A DNA stretch of 64,000 nucleotides from the NCBI GenBank assembly GCA_016125455.1, contig WGLS01000019.1, positions 1-64,000 of the forward strand. The letters are read 5' to 3'. This stretch comes from Alphaproteobacteria bacterium. Its GTDB lineage: Bacteria; Pseudomonadota; Alphaproteobacteria; Caulobacterales; Parvularculaceae. A model generated the notes under the pieces. It was not told the origin of the DNA. It saw nothing but the letters and a program-made list of their open reading frames with translations, and made no database searches. Below are positions 10,365 through 30,372 of this stretch, piece by piece (the stretch's first letter is position 1; every line of letters starts with the position of its first letter). A program made the translations under genes and the position numbers.

Positions 10365-10596
10365 CGCGCAGCGGGAGAGATCGCCTCCGACCCAGGTCGA
10401 CGGCGGCGCCGAAGGAGCAACCGCCCCGGAAACTCTCAGGCCGAAGGACCGCGCGCAGGTTGAAGGCTGGAAAGCCGGCTTGATGGGGACGCCCGGATCG
10501 GGATTGTCCGTAACCGTCAGGCCGCACCGAAGGAGTAAGCCGCGCCCCTCTCGCCGAGGCGCGCCGTGAATCTCTCAGGTCAAATGACAGCCGGGG
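10365..10596 (+). promoter_or_regulatory. Tandem glycine riboswitch controlling the gcv operon
   Basis: Two glycine aptamers lie in tandem upstream of gcvT. The first shows GCGGGAGAGA, GCCGAAGGAGCAA and CTCTCAGGCCGAAGGACCG. The second shows GCACCGAAGGAGTAA, ATCTCTCAGGTCAAATGACA. These are the conserved cores of the two glycine aptamers. Such riboswitches normally turn gcv genes on when glycine is high. The second aptamer ends about 60 bases before gcvT. I did not resolve an intrinsic terminator, so control of translation is as likely as control of transcription. Confidence 0.93.
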
Positions 10597-10657
10597 TCGA
10601 TACGTCAATCGCGGGTCGCCCCACCGGGCGACGCGCAGTCAAGGCGCAAGCGACCCG

Positions 10658-11821
10658 ATGAACGAAGCAATCAATGTCGAACTGAAACATACGCCGCTTC
10701 ACGGCTTGCATGTTGCGGCGGGCGCGCGCATGGGGCCTTTCGCCGGGTACGACATGCCTATTCAGTACCCGGATGGCGTGATGCAGGAGCACCTTCACGT
10801 TCGCGCCGCGGCGGGCCTGTTTGACGTGTCGCACATGGGCCAGGCGTTCCTGAAAACCACCCAGGCGCCGATCGGCGCGCCGCAGGCGCACGAGGCGATC
10901 GCCGCGGCGCTGGAATCCCTGGCGCCGGGCGAGTTCAAAAAGCTGAAGCGCGGCGGCCTCAGATACTCCGTCCTTCTCAACGACGAAGGCGGCGTCCACG
11001 ACGATTTCATGGCCACCCGCCCCGCCATGGAGGCGGGGGACGGGAAGTTGTTTCTCGTCGTCAACGCCGCCTGCAAGGAAGAGGATTACGCCCTGATCGC
11101 CGACCGCCTCGCGGGCCGGGCCGAGCTCGACATCCTCGACGATCGTGCGTTGCTGGCGATCCAGGGGCCGAAAGCGGCCGCCGTCGTCGACGCGCTGTTT
11201 CCCGGCGCGGGCGAGCAGAAGTTCATGACCATGGTTCCGACCGAGTGGGAGGGCGCTTATGTCCTGCTCTCGCGGTGCGGTTACACGGGCGAGGACGGGT
11301 TCGAGATCTCCGTGCCGGCGGACGACGCCGAGCGACTGGCGAAGGCGCTGCTCGCCCATGACGACGTCAAGTGGATCGGGCTCGGCGCGCGCGATTCACT
11401 GCGCCTCGAAGCGGGGCTTTGCCTCTACGGCCATGACCTCGACGGCACGACGTCGCCGGTTGAGGGCGGGATCGACTTCACGATCGGCAAGCGCCGGCGG
11501 GAGGAAGGCGGATTTCCGGGCGCCGACCGGATCCTCCGGGAGCTGAGCGATGGCCCTGCGCGCCGCCGCGTCGGCATACTTCCCGAAGGCCGGGCGCCGG
11601 TCCGCGAGGGCGCCGTCATCCTTTCCGCAGACGGCGCGGAGATCGGCGTCGTGACGTCGGGCGGCTTTGGGCCGACGCTCGCGCGCCCCGTCGCCATGGG
11701 CTATGTGAAGGCGGGTTTCGACGCCATTGGCGCGGCGCTGCAGGTTGTCGTGCGCGGCAAGCCGCTGCCGGCGAGCGTCGCTGCGACCCCATTCGTTCCG
11801 CACAGATATTACAGAGGCTAG
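10658..11821 (+). CDS. gcvT: Glycine cleavage system T protein (aminomethyltransferase)
   Basis: A 387-residue tetrahydrofolate-dependent enzyme that moves the methylene group from aminomethyl-lipoyl H protein to tetrahydrofolate and frees ammonia. Family landmarks are the N-terminal [24 protein letters not shown], the [10 protein letters not shown] segment and [20 protein letters not shown]. It is the first gene of gcvT-gcvH-gcvPA-orf-gcvPB and lies directly behind the glycine riboswitch. Length is slightly longer than the E. coli protein, as usual for alphaproteobacteria. Confidence 0.96.
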
Positions 11822-15474: not shown

Positions 15475-16605
15475 TCAGCCCACTGGCGCCCCTTTTTGCG
15501 GCGCCCCCGCTTGGTGCGGCGCGGCTGCGTGCGGGGGCGCGGCGCGCGGAAGGGCCGAGTCGCCGAACCGCCGGGTCATTCGCAGCAATGGTTTCTCGAC
15601 AAACTCGTGCGCCAGGAACGCGACTGCGAGCCCGGTGGCCGCATAGGCGGCAATGAGGACGGCATTCGTCGCCGCCCCCGGCGCCAGGATCGTGGTGACG
15701 GCCTTCCCGACGACGAGAAATGTCGGCACGTGGAGAAGATAAAGCGCGTACGAGGCGTCGCCGACCTGGCGCAGCCACCGAGGCGCGATGCGCGGCCGGG
15801 GGGCAGCCTCCAGCGCGACGGCGCCGTAGGCGATGGCCGCCATCGGCGCGCCGAAAATCAGTACGCGTTGCATATGATCGGCCAGCGCCGCCGGGTAGAG
15901 GTCACGGGCGAAGCCGATCGCGAGCGCGAGGACGGCGCCGCCGCCGAGGGCAAGCGATGCGGCCGCGCAGCCCGTGACGCCCCGCCGGACAAGTAACGCG
16001 ACGGCCGCGCCCGCCAGAAACTCGAATGTCAACGGATTGAAAATCAGTCTAACGAATGGCGATGCGTCCGCGCCCGTCAATGCCGCGCCGGCGGCGACCA
16101 GCAATCCCCAGGCGAAAAGCAGCATGGGCAGCCGCCCGGGCGCCATCAAAAGGAACAGCGCGAACGCTGCGTAGAAATATAGCTCGTGCGTGAGCGTCCA
16201 GCCGACCGCCAGCAGCGGCAGCTCGCCGGTCGGCAGCAGCAGGAACGAACCGACAAGGTCGCCAAGCGGCGTGTCCTCGCCGAACGCGAACTTCTTGCCG
16301 GCGTAGAGCGCGACGAGCCCAGAGGTGGCGACCCAGTAAAGGGGAAAGATCCGTGCGCCGCGATTGTAGATGAACCGCGTCGCCGCTCTGCGGCCGCGCG
16401 GCCCATCCATGGTCACGTGGACCATAACGAAACCGCTGATGACGAAGAAAAGGTCGACGCCGACCTGGCCCAGATTGAGCGCGAACGGCAACAGCAATGG
16501 CGCCGACCCGTAGTCGCCTTCCGCCGCGGCCAGATGGGCCACAAACACCATCAACGCCGCGACTCCGCGCAGGGCCTGAAGGTTCTCGATCTTCGACGCG
16601 GCCAT
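15475..16605 (-). CDS. Acyltransferase-3 family membrane protein
   Basis: A 376-residue integral membrane protein of the acyltransferase-3 (OafA/YrhL) family, which acetylates or otherwise acylates surface sugars and glycans. It opens with the family motif LQALRGVAALMVFVAHL, has GVDLFFVISGFVM with the following RxxR-like FIYNRGARIFPLYW, and about ten hydrophobic segments. I start at MAASKIENL; an ATG 21 codons upstream has no ribosome-binding site. It converges on gcvPB with only 4 bases between stops. The acceptor is unknown. Confidence 0.88.
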   Translation of the reverse strand: MAASKIENLQALRGVAALMVFVAHLAAAEGDYGSAPLLLPFALNLGQVGVDLFFVISGFVMVHVTMDGPRGRRAATRFIYNRGARIFPLYWVATSGLVALYAGKKFAFGEDTPLGDLVGSFLLLPTGELPLLAVGWTLTHELYFYAAFALFLLMAPGRLPMLLFAWGLLVAAGAALTGADASPFVRLIFNPLTFEFLAGAAVALLVRRGVTGCAAASLALGGGAVLALAIGFARDLYPAALADHMQRVLIFGAPMAAIAYGAVALEAAPRPRIAPRWLRQVGDASYALYLLHVPTFLVVGKAVTTILAPGAATNAVLIAAYAATGLAVAFLAHEFVEKPLLRMTRRFGDSALPRAAPPHAAAPHQAGAPQKGAPVG

Positions 16606-16691
16606 CCTGCGGATCCACCTTTCCGACTTGAAAAGCCTACCGGTCCGTCGGACCTTGAGCCAAGGCATTAGTCAGTCCCGGAGGGGATGAA

Positions 16692-18035
16692 ATGGACGTC
16701 AATGACGCATTCAATGCGGCGACCGTCCTGTCGAAAATATTCGTTCTGGCGCTGGGCCTTGCGGCGGCGGCGCTTGTGGTCGTCTTCGTCATTGACCGGA
16801 CCCAAAATGGCGATGCGATACGGCGAAACTATCCGGTCATCGGGCGGCTCAGGTATCTGTTCTCGCACCTCGGCGAGTTCTTTCGGCAATACTTCTTTGC
16901 GCTTGACCGGGAGGAAATGCCCTTCAACCGGGCCGAGCGGGAATGGATTGAGAACTCCGCCAAAGGCCGGTCGAACACCCAGCCGTTCGGCTCGACGCGC
17001 AACCTCACGCTAGTCGGCACGCCGATCTTTGCAAACGCCGCCTTTCCGAAGCTCGACGAAGAGGCGAGCGATCCGCCAGCTGTGCTGTTCGGTCCTTATG
17101 TGGAACGCCCCTACCGGGCCGGGTCGATCATCAACATTTCCGCGATGAGCTATGGTTCGCTGTCGGCGCCGGCGATCGAGGCGCTGTCGAGGGGCGCGGC
17201 GGCGGCCGGCTGCTGGCTCAATACGGGCGAAGGCGGGCTCGCGCCGCAACACCTCGTCGGCGGCGCCGACGTCGTGTTCCAGATCGGCACCGCGAAATAT
17301 GGCGTCAGGACCCGTGACGGCGCGCTTGACGAGACGCGGCTGCGCGAGATCGGGGCGACGCCCCAGGTAAAGATGATCGAGCTCAAGCTCGCCCAGGGCG
17401 CAAAGCCCGGCAAGGGCGGCATTCTGCCTGCTGAGAAAGTCACTGCGGAGATCGCGTCTATCCGCGGCGTTACAGCGGGAGAGGCGTCGATCTCGCCAAA
17501 CCGCCACCCGGAAATTGACGATGTCGGCGACCTTATCGACATGATAGAGCGCCTGCGGCGGATTTCCGGCCTGCCAGTCGGGTTCAAGACGGTGATTGGC
17601 GGCTACCACTGGATTGAAGAGCTGTGCGATGCGATCGGCGCGCGCGGGGAACGCTCTGCGCCCGATTTCATCACGCTTGACGGGGGCGACGGGGGCACGG
17701 GCGCCGCGCCAATGGCGTTGATGGACAATGTCGGGCTGCCGCTGCGGTATGCGCTCCCGATGCTGACGGATATTCTCGCGCGCCGGCGTCTGCGCGACCG
17801 CATCAGGGTCATCGCGTCGGGCAAGCTCGTGACGCCCGCCGACGTCGCGTGGGCCTATTGCGCCGGCGCCGACGCGGTCAACACGGCTCGGGGCTTCATG
17901 TTTTCAATCGGTTGCATTCAGGCGCTTCGTTGCCATACGAACAATTGCCCGACCGGCGTCACGACCCACAAGAAGCATCTCCAGGCGGCGCTGGACCCGG
18001 TCCGGAAGGCGCGCCAGGTCGCCAGCTATGTGTAG
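16692..18035 (+). CDS. FMN-binding glutamate synthase-like protein, cut by an amber codon
   Basis: A 447-residue protein related to the FMN/Fe-S synthase domain of glutamate synthase. One N-terminal membrane segment (about 12-35) is followed by the (beta/alpha)8 domain with ISAMSYGSLSAPAIEAL, NTGEGGLAPQH, KPGKGGILPAEKVT, ISPNRHPEIDDVGDL, FITLDGGDGGTGAAP and the cysteine region ARGFMFSIGCIQALRCHTNNCPTG. Relatives usually run to ~500 residues. The frame continues after the TAG at 18033-18035 for 53 family-like codons (listed separately), so this is a shortened product unless the amber codon is read through. Function in these membrane-anchored relatives is not established. Confidence 0.85.
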   Translation: MDVNDAFNAATVLSKIFVLALGLAAAALVVVFVIDRTQNGDAIRRNYPVIGRLRYLFSHLGEFFRQYFFALDREEMPFNRAEREWIENSAKGRSNTQPFGSTRNLTLVGTPIFANAAFPKLDEEASDPPAVLFGPYVERPYRAGSIINISAMSYGSLSAPAIEALSRGAAAAGCWLNTGEGGLAPQHLVGGADVVFQIGTAKYGVRTRDGALDETRLREIGATPQVKMIELKLAQGAKPGKGGILPAEKVTAEIASIRGVTAGEASISPNRHPEIDDVGDLIDMIERLRRISGLPVGFKTVIGGYHWIEELCDAIGARGERSAPDFITLDGGDGGTGAAPMALMDNVGLPLRYALPMLTDILARRRLRDRIRVIASGKLVTPADVAWAYCAGADAVNTARGFMFSIGCIQALRCHTNNCPTGVTTHKKHLQAALDPVRKARQVASYV

Positions 18036-18197
18036 CAGATGCGCAAGGACGTCGGCATGATCGCCCACTCGTGCGGCGCAGCGCACGCTCGCGCGCTGGA
18101 TCGGCGGCATGTCAGGATCGTTCAGGGCGACGGGATTTCGGTGCCCCTCGATCGGCTTTGCCGGCGCCTCGCCGCGGAGGTCGGCTACGCGACCTGA
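18036..18197 (+). other. In-frame C-terminal extension beyond the amber codon
   Basis: In the same frame as the gene before it, the 53 codons after TAG read Q-MRKDVGMIAHSCG, then AAHARALDRRHVRIVQGDG and end at TGA 18195-18197. This matches what is expected at the end of the family (a helix with 'IAHSCG' followed by 'R-x-H-x-R...G'). The extension ends 13 bases before the stop of the opposite-strand DUF924 gene, consistent with it being the original gene end. It is either a recent nonsense mutation, a readthrough product or a sequencing error. Confidence 0.75.
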
Positions 18198-18210: not shown

Positions 18211-18816
18211 TCAGGCGGCGAACCCGCCATTGCGCAGGAACTGCCGCTCGGCTGGCGTCGACGCCCGGCCAAGGATCGCATTGCGGTGCGGAAACCGTCC
18301 GAAGCGCAGGATGATCGATGCGTGTTCGCGGGCGTGACCCAGTTGCAGCGGATCGTTCCGCCGTGTGCGGAAGAGACGGAGCGACAGGTCCTGATCGGCG
18401 ATCGTTTCCGCGTGCATGAACGGCATATAGAAAAAGGCTCGCTCCCGCGCGGGCACGGCGAGGTCGAACCGCCGCGCGATGGCCCGCCGGGCGACGGCGC
18501 GCGCCAGCGGGTCCGAGGAGAAGGCGCGGGGGTCGTCGCGGTGAAGATTGCGCGAAAACTGGTCGAGCACGATGACGAAGGCGAGGGCGCCGCGCGGGAA
18601 GGACTCCAGCGCCGGCCAGGCGCCGGCGGCCGCGACGTCGTGCAGGACCGCGAAATTCTGACGAACCCGCGCGTCGAACGCCGCCGAGCGGCGGAACCAG
18701 TCCACGGGCCGCGCTGCTGCGAACCAGAACGACATGACGTCGTCAGCAATCGACGATGCGGGACGGCGGCGGGGGTCGGCGGCAGTTTGCAGGCTGCGCG
18801 GCAAAACCGGCTGCAC
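18211..18816 (-). CDS. DUF924 family protein
   Basis: A 201-residue soluble protein of the DUF924 family, found widely in bacteria and eukaryotes but without a known function. Family marks are VMSFWF, WPALESFPRGALAFVIVLDQFSRNLHRDDPRAFSSDPLA, AFFYMPFMHAETIADQ and the C-terminal HASIILRFGRFPHRN. It begins with a GTG 2 bases after the atpF stop, so it is probably the last gene of the ATP synthase F0 transcript. Length is normal for the family. Confidence 0.88.
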   Translation of the reverse strand: MQPVLPRSLQTAADPRRRPASSIADDVMSFWFAAARPVDWFRRSAAFDARVRQNFAVLHDVAAAGAWPALESFPRGALAFVIVLDQFSRNLHRDDPRAFSSDPLARAVARRAIARRFDLAVPARERAFFYMPFMHAETIADQDLSLRLFRTRRNDPLQLGHAREHASIILRFGRFPHRNAILGRASTPAERQFLRNGGFAA

Positions 18817-20370: not shown

Positions 20371-21243
20371 TCAGTGGTGCCCCACGTGCTCCGCATCGTT
20401 GAGATAGATGCAGGTCAGGATCGCGAACACGTACGCCTGAAGGAAGGCGACAAGGAGTTCGAGCAGGGTGATAGCGACCGTTCCGAGGAAAGGAAAGATC
20501 GCAATCGCACTGACGACGCCGCCCGCCCCGAGAAGCGAAATGATGAAGCCGGCGAACACCTTCAGGATGATGTGGCCGGCCAGCATGTTCGCAAACAACC
20601 GGATTGCGAGCGACAGCGGCCGCGACAGGAATGACACGAACTCGATCAGCACGATCAGCGGCAACAGCCAGGCCGGCACGCCGGAGGGCGCGAACAGCTT
20701 CAGAAAGCCAAGGCCGTTCTTGTAGAAGCCGTAGACGATCACGATGAGGATCGACGTCATCGAAAGGCCGATGGTCACGGCGATATGGCTGGTTGTCGTG
20801 AAGGTGTGGGTGAGGCCAGGGATCGATGGCGTCAGGCCAAGCAGGTTCGCCAGCAGGATGTAGACGAACAGCGTGAAGACGAACGGGAAGAACTTCATGC
20901 CTTCCGGACCGATCGCGCCGCGAACCATGTCTGCGACAAAGTCATAGGTGAGTTCGGCGACCGACTGGAGCCGCCCGGGGATCAGCGACCGCACGCGCGT
21001 CGCCGCGGTGAAGAAAAGGATGGCGAGCCCGGTCGCGATAACCATCCACAGGGACGAATTGGTGAATGACAGGTCGATGTCGCCAAGGGACAGCGGCACG
21101 TAGCGGTGGATTTCGAACTGTTCCATCGGGCCGGCCGCGCGCGGCGCGAAAGACGACCCGAGCAAACGCGCAAGGTCACCTACGACGCCAAGCGCCGCGG
21201 GGGCCGGTGCGTCGAGCATTGATGAAAGCGACGACGTCGTCAT
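20371..21243 (-). CDS. atpB: ATP synthase F0 subunit a
   Basis: A 290-residue membrane protein that forms the proton half-channels against the c ring. The essential arginine is in SRPLSLAIRLFANMLAGH, and the last helix region LLELLVAFLQAYVFAILTCIYLNDA is typical. The N-terminal ~35 residues are longer than in many relatives but the ATG overlaps the atpI stop (ATGA), which supports this start. Five to six membrane helices can be seen. Confidence 0.95.
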   Translation of the reverse strand: MTTSSLSSMLDAPAPAALGVVGDLARLLGSSFAPRAAGPMEQFEIHRYVPLSLGDIDLSFTNSSLWMVIATGLAILFFTAATRVRSLIPGRLQSVAELTYDFVADMVRGAIGPEGMKFFPFVFTLFVYILLANLLGLTPSIPGLTHTFTTTSHIAVTIGLSMTSILIVIVYGFYKNGLGFLKLFAPSGVPAWLLPLIVLIEFVSFLSRPLSLAIRLFANMLAGHIILKVFAGFIISLLGAGGVVSAIAIFPFLGTVAITLLELLVAFLQAYVFAILTCIYLNDAEHVGHH

Positions 21244-21593
21244 GTCTGTCCCTCGCCGGCGTTGTCGCCGTTCTTGTCGTTGGTCGCTCCGCCGCCAGTG
21301 AAAGCCGACACGGCGTTGCGCAGTCCCGCTGCGAAACCGATGAACAGGCCCGCGAGGAGCCCGAAGGGAGCGGTTCCGACAAACGCGTCGAAACCAAGCC
21401 CGAGCGCCAGGCCGACGAGCGCCGCCGCGATGAGCTCGGACGCGAGACGAAACCCCGCGCCAAGCGCCTGACCGCGGCTGGACGCTTCGCCCCGCCGTGC
21501 GGCGTCCGTCTCGCGTTGTCCGAGCGCTTCGTCAAGGCGCCGGGACAAATCTTCGAGCCGGTCGCCGGCTTCGCGGTTCTTATCCTCGCTCAC
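21240..21593 (-). CDS. atpI: AtpI/AtpZ-type ATP synthase assembly protein
   Basis: A 117-residue small membrane protein at the head of the F0 operon. A charged N-terminal part (EDKNREAGDRLEDLSRRLDEAL) precedes two hydrophobic segments (LIAAALVGLALGLGFDAF and FGLLAGLFIGFAAGLRNAV), the AtpI/AtpZ pattern. AtpI proteins help assemble the c ring or transport magnesium/calcium. I start at the GTG at 21593 (VSEDKNRE); the frame is open further but the upstream part is not family-like. Its stop overlaps atpB as ATGA. Confidence 0.82.
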   Translation of the reverse strand: MSEDKNREAGDRLEDLSRRLDEALGQRETDAARRGEASSRGQALGAGFRLASELIAAALVGLALGLGFDAFVGTAPFGLLAGLFIGFAAGLRNAVSAFTGGGATNDKNGDNAGEGQT

Positions 21594-29298: not shown

Positions 29299-30372
29299 AT
29301 GAAACAGAACCGGTTCAAGCGCCAGGCGCGCGATGCCCTCGACTGGTACGACGCCAACGCCCGCGATCTGCCCTGGCGCGTCGGCCCGTCAGCGCGGGCG
29401 GCGGGCCTCAGGCCGGATCCCTACCGCGTCTGGCTGTCCGAGGTGATGCTGCAGCAGACGACCGTCGCAACGGTGCGCCCTCGGTTCGCCGCTTTCGTCT
29501 CGCGATGGCCGAGCGTCGGCGCGCTGGCGGCGGCGGCCGAAGACGACGTGTTCGGCGAGTGGGCCGGCCTTGGCTATTACGCAAGGGCCCGCAACCTGCA
29601 CAGATGCGCCAAGGTCGTTGCGTCCGACCTCAATGGCGTTTTTCCGGATACTGAGGAGAAGCTGCTCGCCCTGCCTGGGGTCGGTCCATATACGGCGGCC
29701 GCTATCGCCGCTATCGCATTCGACGCCAGGGCGATCGTTATCGACGGCAATATCGAACGCGTCGCCGCGCGGCTGTTCGCCATCGACCGGCCGGTTCGCG
29801 TGGCGAAAGCGGACATCAGGGAGCGGCTAGACCGGATCTGGCCGAACGACCGCTGCGGCGACTTTGCCCAGAGCCTGATGGACCTCGGCGCGACCATCTG
29901 CACTCCGCGAAAGCCGTCATGCCCGATCTGCCCGCTGAACGATCACTGCCTCGCCGCGGCGGGCGATGATCCGGCGCGCTATCCGACAAAGCCGGCGAAG
30001 CCCGTGCGGCCCGACCGCGCAGGCGCCGCATGGGCTCTGTTCGACGGGCGCGACCGGGTGCTGCTGGTCCGGCGTCCGCCGAAAGGACTTCTCGGCGGCA
30101 TGATGGCGTTGCCGAGCGCTGGGTGGTCCGACCATGACGACGCGCCGCCGGCCGCAGCGCAATGGAAGGATGCCGGATCGATCGAGCACGTCTTCACCCA
30201 TTTCCGCCTTACACTGACGGTCCATGCGGGGGCCGCGCCGAAGGGCATGCGGTTGCGGGAAGGGGAGGTCTGGGCCGACGCGGCGAGCGCCGCAGTCCCG
30301 ACGGTCATGCGCAAGGCGATCGACCGGGCGATAGCGCACCGCGACAGTCGAAATTCCCCGTCCCCGGCGTGA
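29299..30372 (+). CDS. mutY: A/G-specific adenine glycosylase
   Basis: A 357-residue base-excision repair enzyme that removes adenine mispaired with 8-oxoguanine. Catalytic residues E48 (in SEVMLQQTTV) and D149 (in VIDGNIERVAAR) are present, as is the helix-hairpin-helix LLALPGVGPYTAAAIAAI. The [4Fe-4S] cluster ligands are C201, C208, C211 and C217 (spacing 6-2-5). The C-terminal Nudix-like domain (about 235-340) recognises the 8-oxoguanine. The ATG at 29299 follows GGAGG. It is divergent from the DUF721 gene. Confidence 0.96.
   Translation: MKQNRFKRQARDALDWYDANARDLPWRVGPSARAAGLRPDPYRVWLSEVMLQQTTVATVRPRFAAFVSRWPSVGALAAAAEDDVFGEWAGLGYYARARNLHRCAKVVASDLNGVFPDTEEKLLALPGVGPYTAAAIAAIAFDARAIVIDGNIERVAARLFAIDRPVRVAKADIRERLDRIWPNDRCGDFAQSLMDLGATICTPRKPSCPICPLNDHCLAAAGDDPARYPTKPAKPVRPDRAGAAWALFDGRDRVLLVRRPPKGLLGGMMALPSAGWSDHDDAPPAAAQWKDAGSIEHVFTHFRLTLTVHAGAAPKGMRLREGEVWADAASAAVPTVMRKAIDRAIAHRDSRNSPSPA

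Follow-up and report, generated by a model that had tools for sequence, protein, structure and literature searches.

GltB, a protein of about 1500 residues, provides the best sequence and fold matches (PDB 7mfm, 1ofd and 1ea0) to the protein investigated here. Only its FMN/Fe-S part, the region of glutamate synthase described by PF01645, corresponds to our protein, and the sequence matches to GltB stop at our residue 430-437. Proteins in which the PF01645 domain stands alone are, we take it, those named "FMN-binding glutamate synthase family protein". Relatives from this family share the focal protein's domain, its Cys motif and the tail at the C-terminus, and 112 of them are 55-75% identical to it over nearly the whole length.

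Both lone and shared in-frame stops in bacteria have already been described, in the available part of Belinky et al. 2021 (PMC7918605), and the available part of another paper (PMC8629427) cautions that recoding is mimicked by the in-frame stops of pseudogenes. Here we analyze an in-frame TAG in a family member from an alphaproteobacterium of the Parvularculaceae (GCA_016125455.1); the window is the whole stretch of 64,000 nucleotides at positions 1 to 64,000 of contig WGLS01000019.1. The reading we favor, with a probability of roughly 0.58, is that a dispensable gene has only very recently acquired a nonsense substitution and become an incipient pseudogene.

The interrupted gene and its continuation

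The gene and its neighbors comprise the following features (window coordinates):

15475..16668, minus strand: upstream neighbor, divergent; a 397-aa ORF that by eye resembles an acyltransferase (ORF listing)
16680..16686, plus strand: GGAGGGG, from its sequence a likely ribosome-binding site, 5 bases 5' of the ATG
16692..18035, plus strand: focal ORF of 447 aa, FMN-type glutamate-synthase-like, from ATG 16692 to TAG (PF01645, ORF listing)
18033..18035, plus strand: in-frame TAG, codon 448 (sequence, translation)
18036..18197, plus strand: 53-codon in-frame continuation plus TGA, the conserved family C-terminus (translation, relatives, read-through model)
18211..18816, minus strand: downstream neighbor, a convergent ORF of 201 aa (ORF listing)

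The initial annotation had reported a stop at TAG 18033, 53 same-frame codons beyond it and a gap of 13 bases to the next gene, all of which sequence and translation confirm. The 53 sense codons occupy positions 18036-18194 and are followed by TGA at 18195-18197; the next ORF is convergent and on the minus strand, and is therefore not a downstream operon gene. A stretch of genome G002 (L204) matches the window at two flanks of the gene, 10397-11818 and 20374-21531, so that the local gene order is common to G002 and the window.

The focal ORF matches PF01645 at residues 137-447 (3.5e-86, 290.1 bits; cut-off 20.4), and the 53-codon tail by itself matched no Pfam or NCBIfam model. C408, C414 and C419 are invariant across 42 aligned sequences; we take them to be a putative Cys triad of a 3Fe-4S cluster, a role known from GltB. 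The C-terminal end of the family is incomplete in the focal ORF, as the TAG is codon 448 and the tail lies beyond it. Six-frame codon statistics, by themselves weak on a tail as short as 53 codons, place the tail's own frame at the top over all 53 codons (8.9 vs. 7.1) and not at the top over the first 25 (2.1 vs. 2.4).

A model of the read-through protein, built on 42 sequences (mean pLDDT 87, pTM 0.86), has its best fold matches among glutamate synthase large subunits and places residue 448 within a helix that spans residues 436-460. The block-mean pLDDT of the tail is about 88-95, with the last residue lower. According to this model the 447-residue product is probably inactive or unstable: it would be cut in the middle of the helix, losing half of it together with the AHSCG...HVRIV end. 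One alternative is that the short protein still works, or that a restart at ATG 18039 yields the tail as a separate piece. The TAG does lie 3' of the Cys-rich motif, the Pfam match extends to residue 447, and an ATG is found one codon past the stop; however, the predicted cut falls inside the helix, and at least 40 codons from the site onward are kept in all 112 relatives described below. Met at the position of the putative restart is common in the family, so that its place is no adaptation, and a Shine-Dalgarno-like stretch is not visible just 5' of ATG 18039. We consider this alternative highly improbable.

Comparison with relatives

The full focal frame, with X at the stop, was aligned by tblastn to 127 loci from relatives, the family and the genome contigs; after 12 matches below 55% identity and 3 duplicate records were dropped, 112 distinct relatives remained. 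Their alignments continue straight across the TAG site, which is reached in every one of them. No stop occurs within the aligned stretch in any of the 112 (all at least 55% identical), and none of them ends at this point; relatives that all end here would, according to the initial annotation, have refuted its interpretation. The codon at the site, whose comparison it had also proposed, is sense in all 112 and encodes E in 27, K in 24, R in 17, D in 14, N in 10, L in 5, Q in 5, G in 4, H in 3, M in 2 and T in 1. From the site to the relative's own stop there are 40 to 129 codons where the end fell inside the locus. The 28 closest relatives (at least 69% identity) have E or D at the site (GAA 15, GAG 6, GAC 5, GAT 2), and GAG differs from TAG by one base. 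As judged from these alignments, the tail belongs to the gene as genuine family sequence. Because no relative has a stop and each carries a sense codon at the site, the TAG is private to the focal genome among the genomes compared.

A search of the family found the gene in 32 of 62 genomes (match of 1e-120 or better) and an interior stop in the focal copy only. Some of the 30 genomes without the gene are incomplete; of the 42 genomes with a completeness of 90% or more and no more than 5% contamination, 21 carry the gene. Because only about half of the family genomes have it, the gene is, judging from this distribution, accessory and dispensable at the family level. The focal genome also contains an intact gltB-type gene (1513-codon frame) and a second PF01645-like gene, which is also open.

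The initial annotation held that the tail still looks protein-coding and that decay is at most recent, and both statements stand. The focal sequence keeps all 13 near-invariant columns of the tail (38 relatives), through which the relatives' alignments pass, and 172 of the 175 near-invariant columns before the TAG. The retention of 13/13 is normal and not special, as 27 of the 38 other rows likewise have no tail deviation. Identity to the 11 closest relatives is 67-82% in the tail vs. 69-75% before the TAG. With every near-invariant column kept and the tail about as similar to its closest relatives as the rest, there has been little or no decay. In neutral simulations all protected residues were kept and no stop was gained in 80% of the runs with 1 tail change, 27% with 6, 11% with 10 and 4% with 15. 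In all five comparisons with relatives, pN is far lower than pS both before and after the TAG. However, dS is close to saturation or beyond it, and in one of the five comparisons infinite for the tail, so that the low pN speaks for constraint over long periods before the stop appeared and not for constraint after it. By these measures the stop is young, with a loose bound on its age, because the protein of the nearest compared genome is only about 73-75% identical.

A tail without any decay also means that nothing independent indicates lost function. The main rival to a recent nonsense substitution is a wrong base in the draft assembly, with the gene intact in the organism itself. Such an error gives the same picture as a real mutation, and it would leave the tail and the rest undecayed, as observed. 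However, odd residues are not in excess in the focal sequence: 3 near-invariant columns before the TAG deviate (1.7%), compared with an average of 3.0% across the other 38 rows. We return to this explanation, which we judge possible but doubtful, with the other stops in the assembly.

Termination at TAG

RF1 is present with an open frame (492.7 bits vs. a curated cut-off of 423.25) and is expected to end translation at the TAG, which would leave a product of 447 residues. A 704 kb sample of the genome contains 561 gene-like ORFs, of which 190 end in TAG, 300 in TGA and 71 in TAA; TAG, which ends about a third of these ORFs, is thus not avoided as a terminator. The genome yielded 37 tRNA genes (RF00005 search; anticodons read by ARAGORN). 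The suppressor tRNA raised as a possibility in the initial annotation did not turn up: none of the 37 has a CUA anticodon, in a list that lacks Ile, Cys, His and Asn tRNAs. These four kinds of tRNA are absent from the assembly or from the search results; the set is therefore incomplete, and unassembled DNA may hold a suppressor. PylS was not found above the cut-off in the genome; there are two hits far below it, and weak hits of this kind are likewise present in 12 of the 14 control genomes. The 100 bases 3' of the TAG fold no better than shuffled sequences (z = +0.85), and a stop kept at the same site, the sign of conserved programmed readthrough, occurs in 0/112 relatives. Nothing that we found favors decoding of the TAG or a novel use of the genetic code.

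These results bear on the explanation that useful levels of readthrough or suppression at the TAG yield the full-length enzyme. The available part of PMC7918605 reports that in-frame stops for which dN/dS is below 1 are widespread in bacteria, and a tail conserved as well as the rest of the protein is in keeping with this explanation. Nevertheless, the presence of RF1, the lack of a CUA anticodon among the listed tRNAs and of PylS above the cut-off, the unremarkable fold after the TAG and the lack of the stop in the relatives all point the other way. In addition, the other two interrupted genes of this genome (below) carry TAA, and therefore no one codon is recoded. Readthrough is thus very unlikely. 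It is extremely unlikely that a leaky TAG acts as a dimmer of an accessory oxidoreductase, with purifying selection on the tail exerted via the read-through product. Of the three options offered in the initial annotation, recent mutation and base error remain, whereas readthrough or suppression is without support.

Other lone stops in the assembly

Two further stops interrupt conserved frames:

L202:15793-15795 (G000:C31:165793): TAA inside bioB (biotin synthase), frame otherwise intact (codon statistics)
L195:15743-15745 (G000:C33:265743): TAA close to the 3' end in a gene of the Vgb-lyase family (comparison with G002)

Here G000 is the focal genome. bioB is above the cut-off in 32 family genomes, and the G000 copy alone has a stop; the site encodes Tyr in 29 of 30 relatives examined. 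In the Vgb-lyase-family gene 13 codons continue past the TAA, and the frame of the closest relative runs on.

When 111 G002 genes were compared with the G000 sample, seven stops appeared in the alignments, two of which were judged genuine by eye: the focal TAG, for which the G002 region had been fetched deliberately, and the TAA of the Vgb-lyase-family gene. The other five, at alignment ends or in poorly aligned flanks, were rejected. The reverse comparison of 118 genes gave 14 stops, none judged genuine by eye, and frameshift-like breaks between G000 and G002 numbered zero in either direction.

In a codon-statistics scan shadow frames overwhelmed the first form; the second marked 32 of the 257 pairs tested, including the bioB TAA and missing the focal stop. 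Of 217 long ORFs, the stricter rule would flag 153 with a 53-codon tail. A looser list contained 85 places, the focal stop among them. Nine of these, picked by eye, and the Vgb-lyase-family stop were tested with Pfam, and only in bioB, of those 10 places, does a domain span the stop. The ~704 kb sample, about a fifth of the genome, thus holds at least three lone stops, a lower bound because the other 75 places (the focal one apart) were assessed by eye or not judged.

Lone stops of these two kinds in conserved frames are compatible with occasional wrong bases or with the recent loss of genes that are dispensable, and they argue against one codon having been reassigned. The assembly is a draft of 37 contigs, 96.33% complete, and two more lone stops in conserved frames within ~704 kb, together with the 2/111 vs. 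0/118 genuine stops judged by eye, are in keeping with wrong bases. However, frameshift-like breaks do not accompany these stops, and without the focal gene the comparison becomes 1/110 vs. 0/118 interior stops, a difference that is not significant. The focal gene and bioB are also both patchy in the family (32/62 genomes each), where real losses are tolerated.

A mutator phenotype through loss of mutY was considered as well, since a change from GAG to TAG would be G:C to T:A; mutY is open and single in the genome, and the idea was not supported. The mutY-like gene lies at window positions 29329-30120 on the plus strand (open frame of 392 codons) and scores 283.3 bits, just below the NCBIfam cut-off of 286.5, as do several relatives.

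Discussion

The reading that we prefer is that one nonsense substitution, very recent and confined to this genome, hit an accessory FMN/Fe-S glutamate-synthase-like oxidoreductase and would have cut it about 54 residues before its C-terminus. We infer a correctly called base, a product without function and a gene at the start of its life as a pseudogene; a disabling change absent from the orthologues, as expected of a pseudogene, is what the 112 relatives reveal.

By itself the stop matters little, and the finding is an ordinary one. It provides a clean example of how a lone in-frame stop may be mistaken for recoding and, taken with the two further lone stops, warns of imperfect base accuracy, or of recent gene loss, as possibilities in this assembly. 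If readthrough were shown, the locus would be an example of an amber codon with a natural regulatory role in a bacterium that has no evident suppressor.

The focal gene looks like an ordinary case of a gene broken very recently, or of a single wrong base in the assembly. The focal copy differs from the FMN-binding glutamate synthase family in the TAG, which precedes the normal end by 54 codons. In the cases described in the available part of Belinky et al. 2021 (PMC7918605), a sense codon has become a stop within sequence conserved on both sides, as is seen here. However, only stops present in at least two genomes were counted there, in order to exclude sequencing errors, and the focal stop differs from those cases in being found in one genome only.
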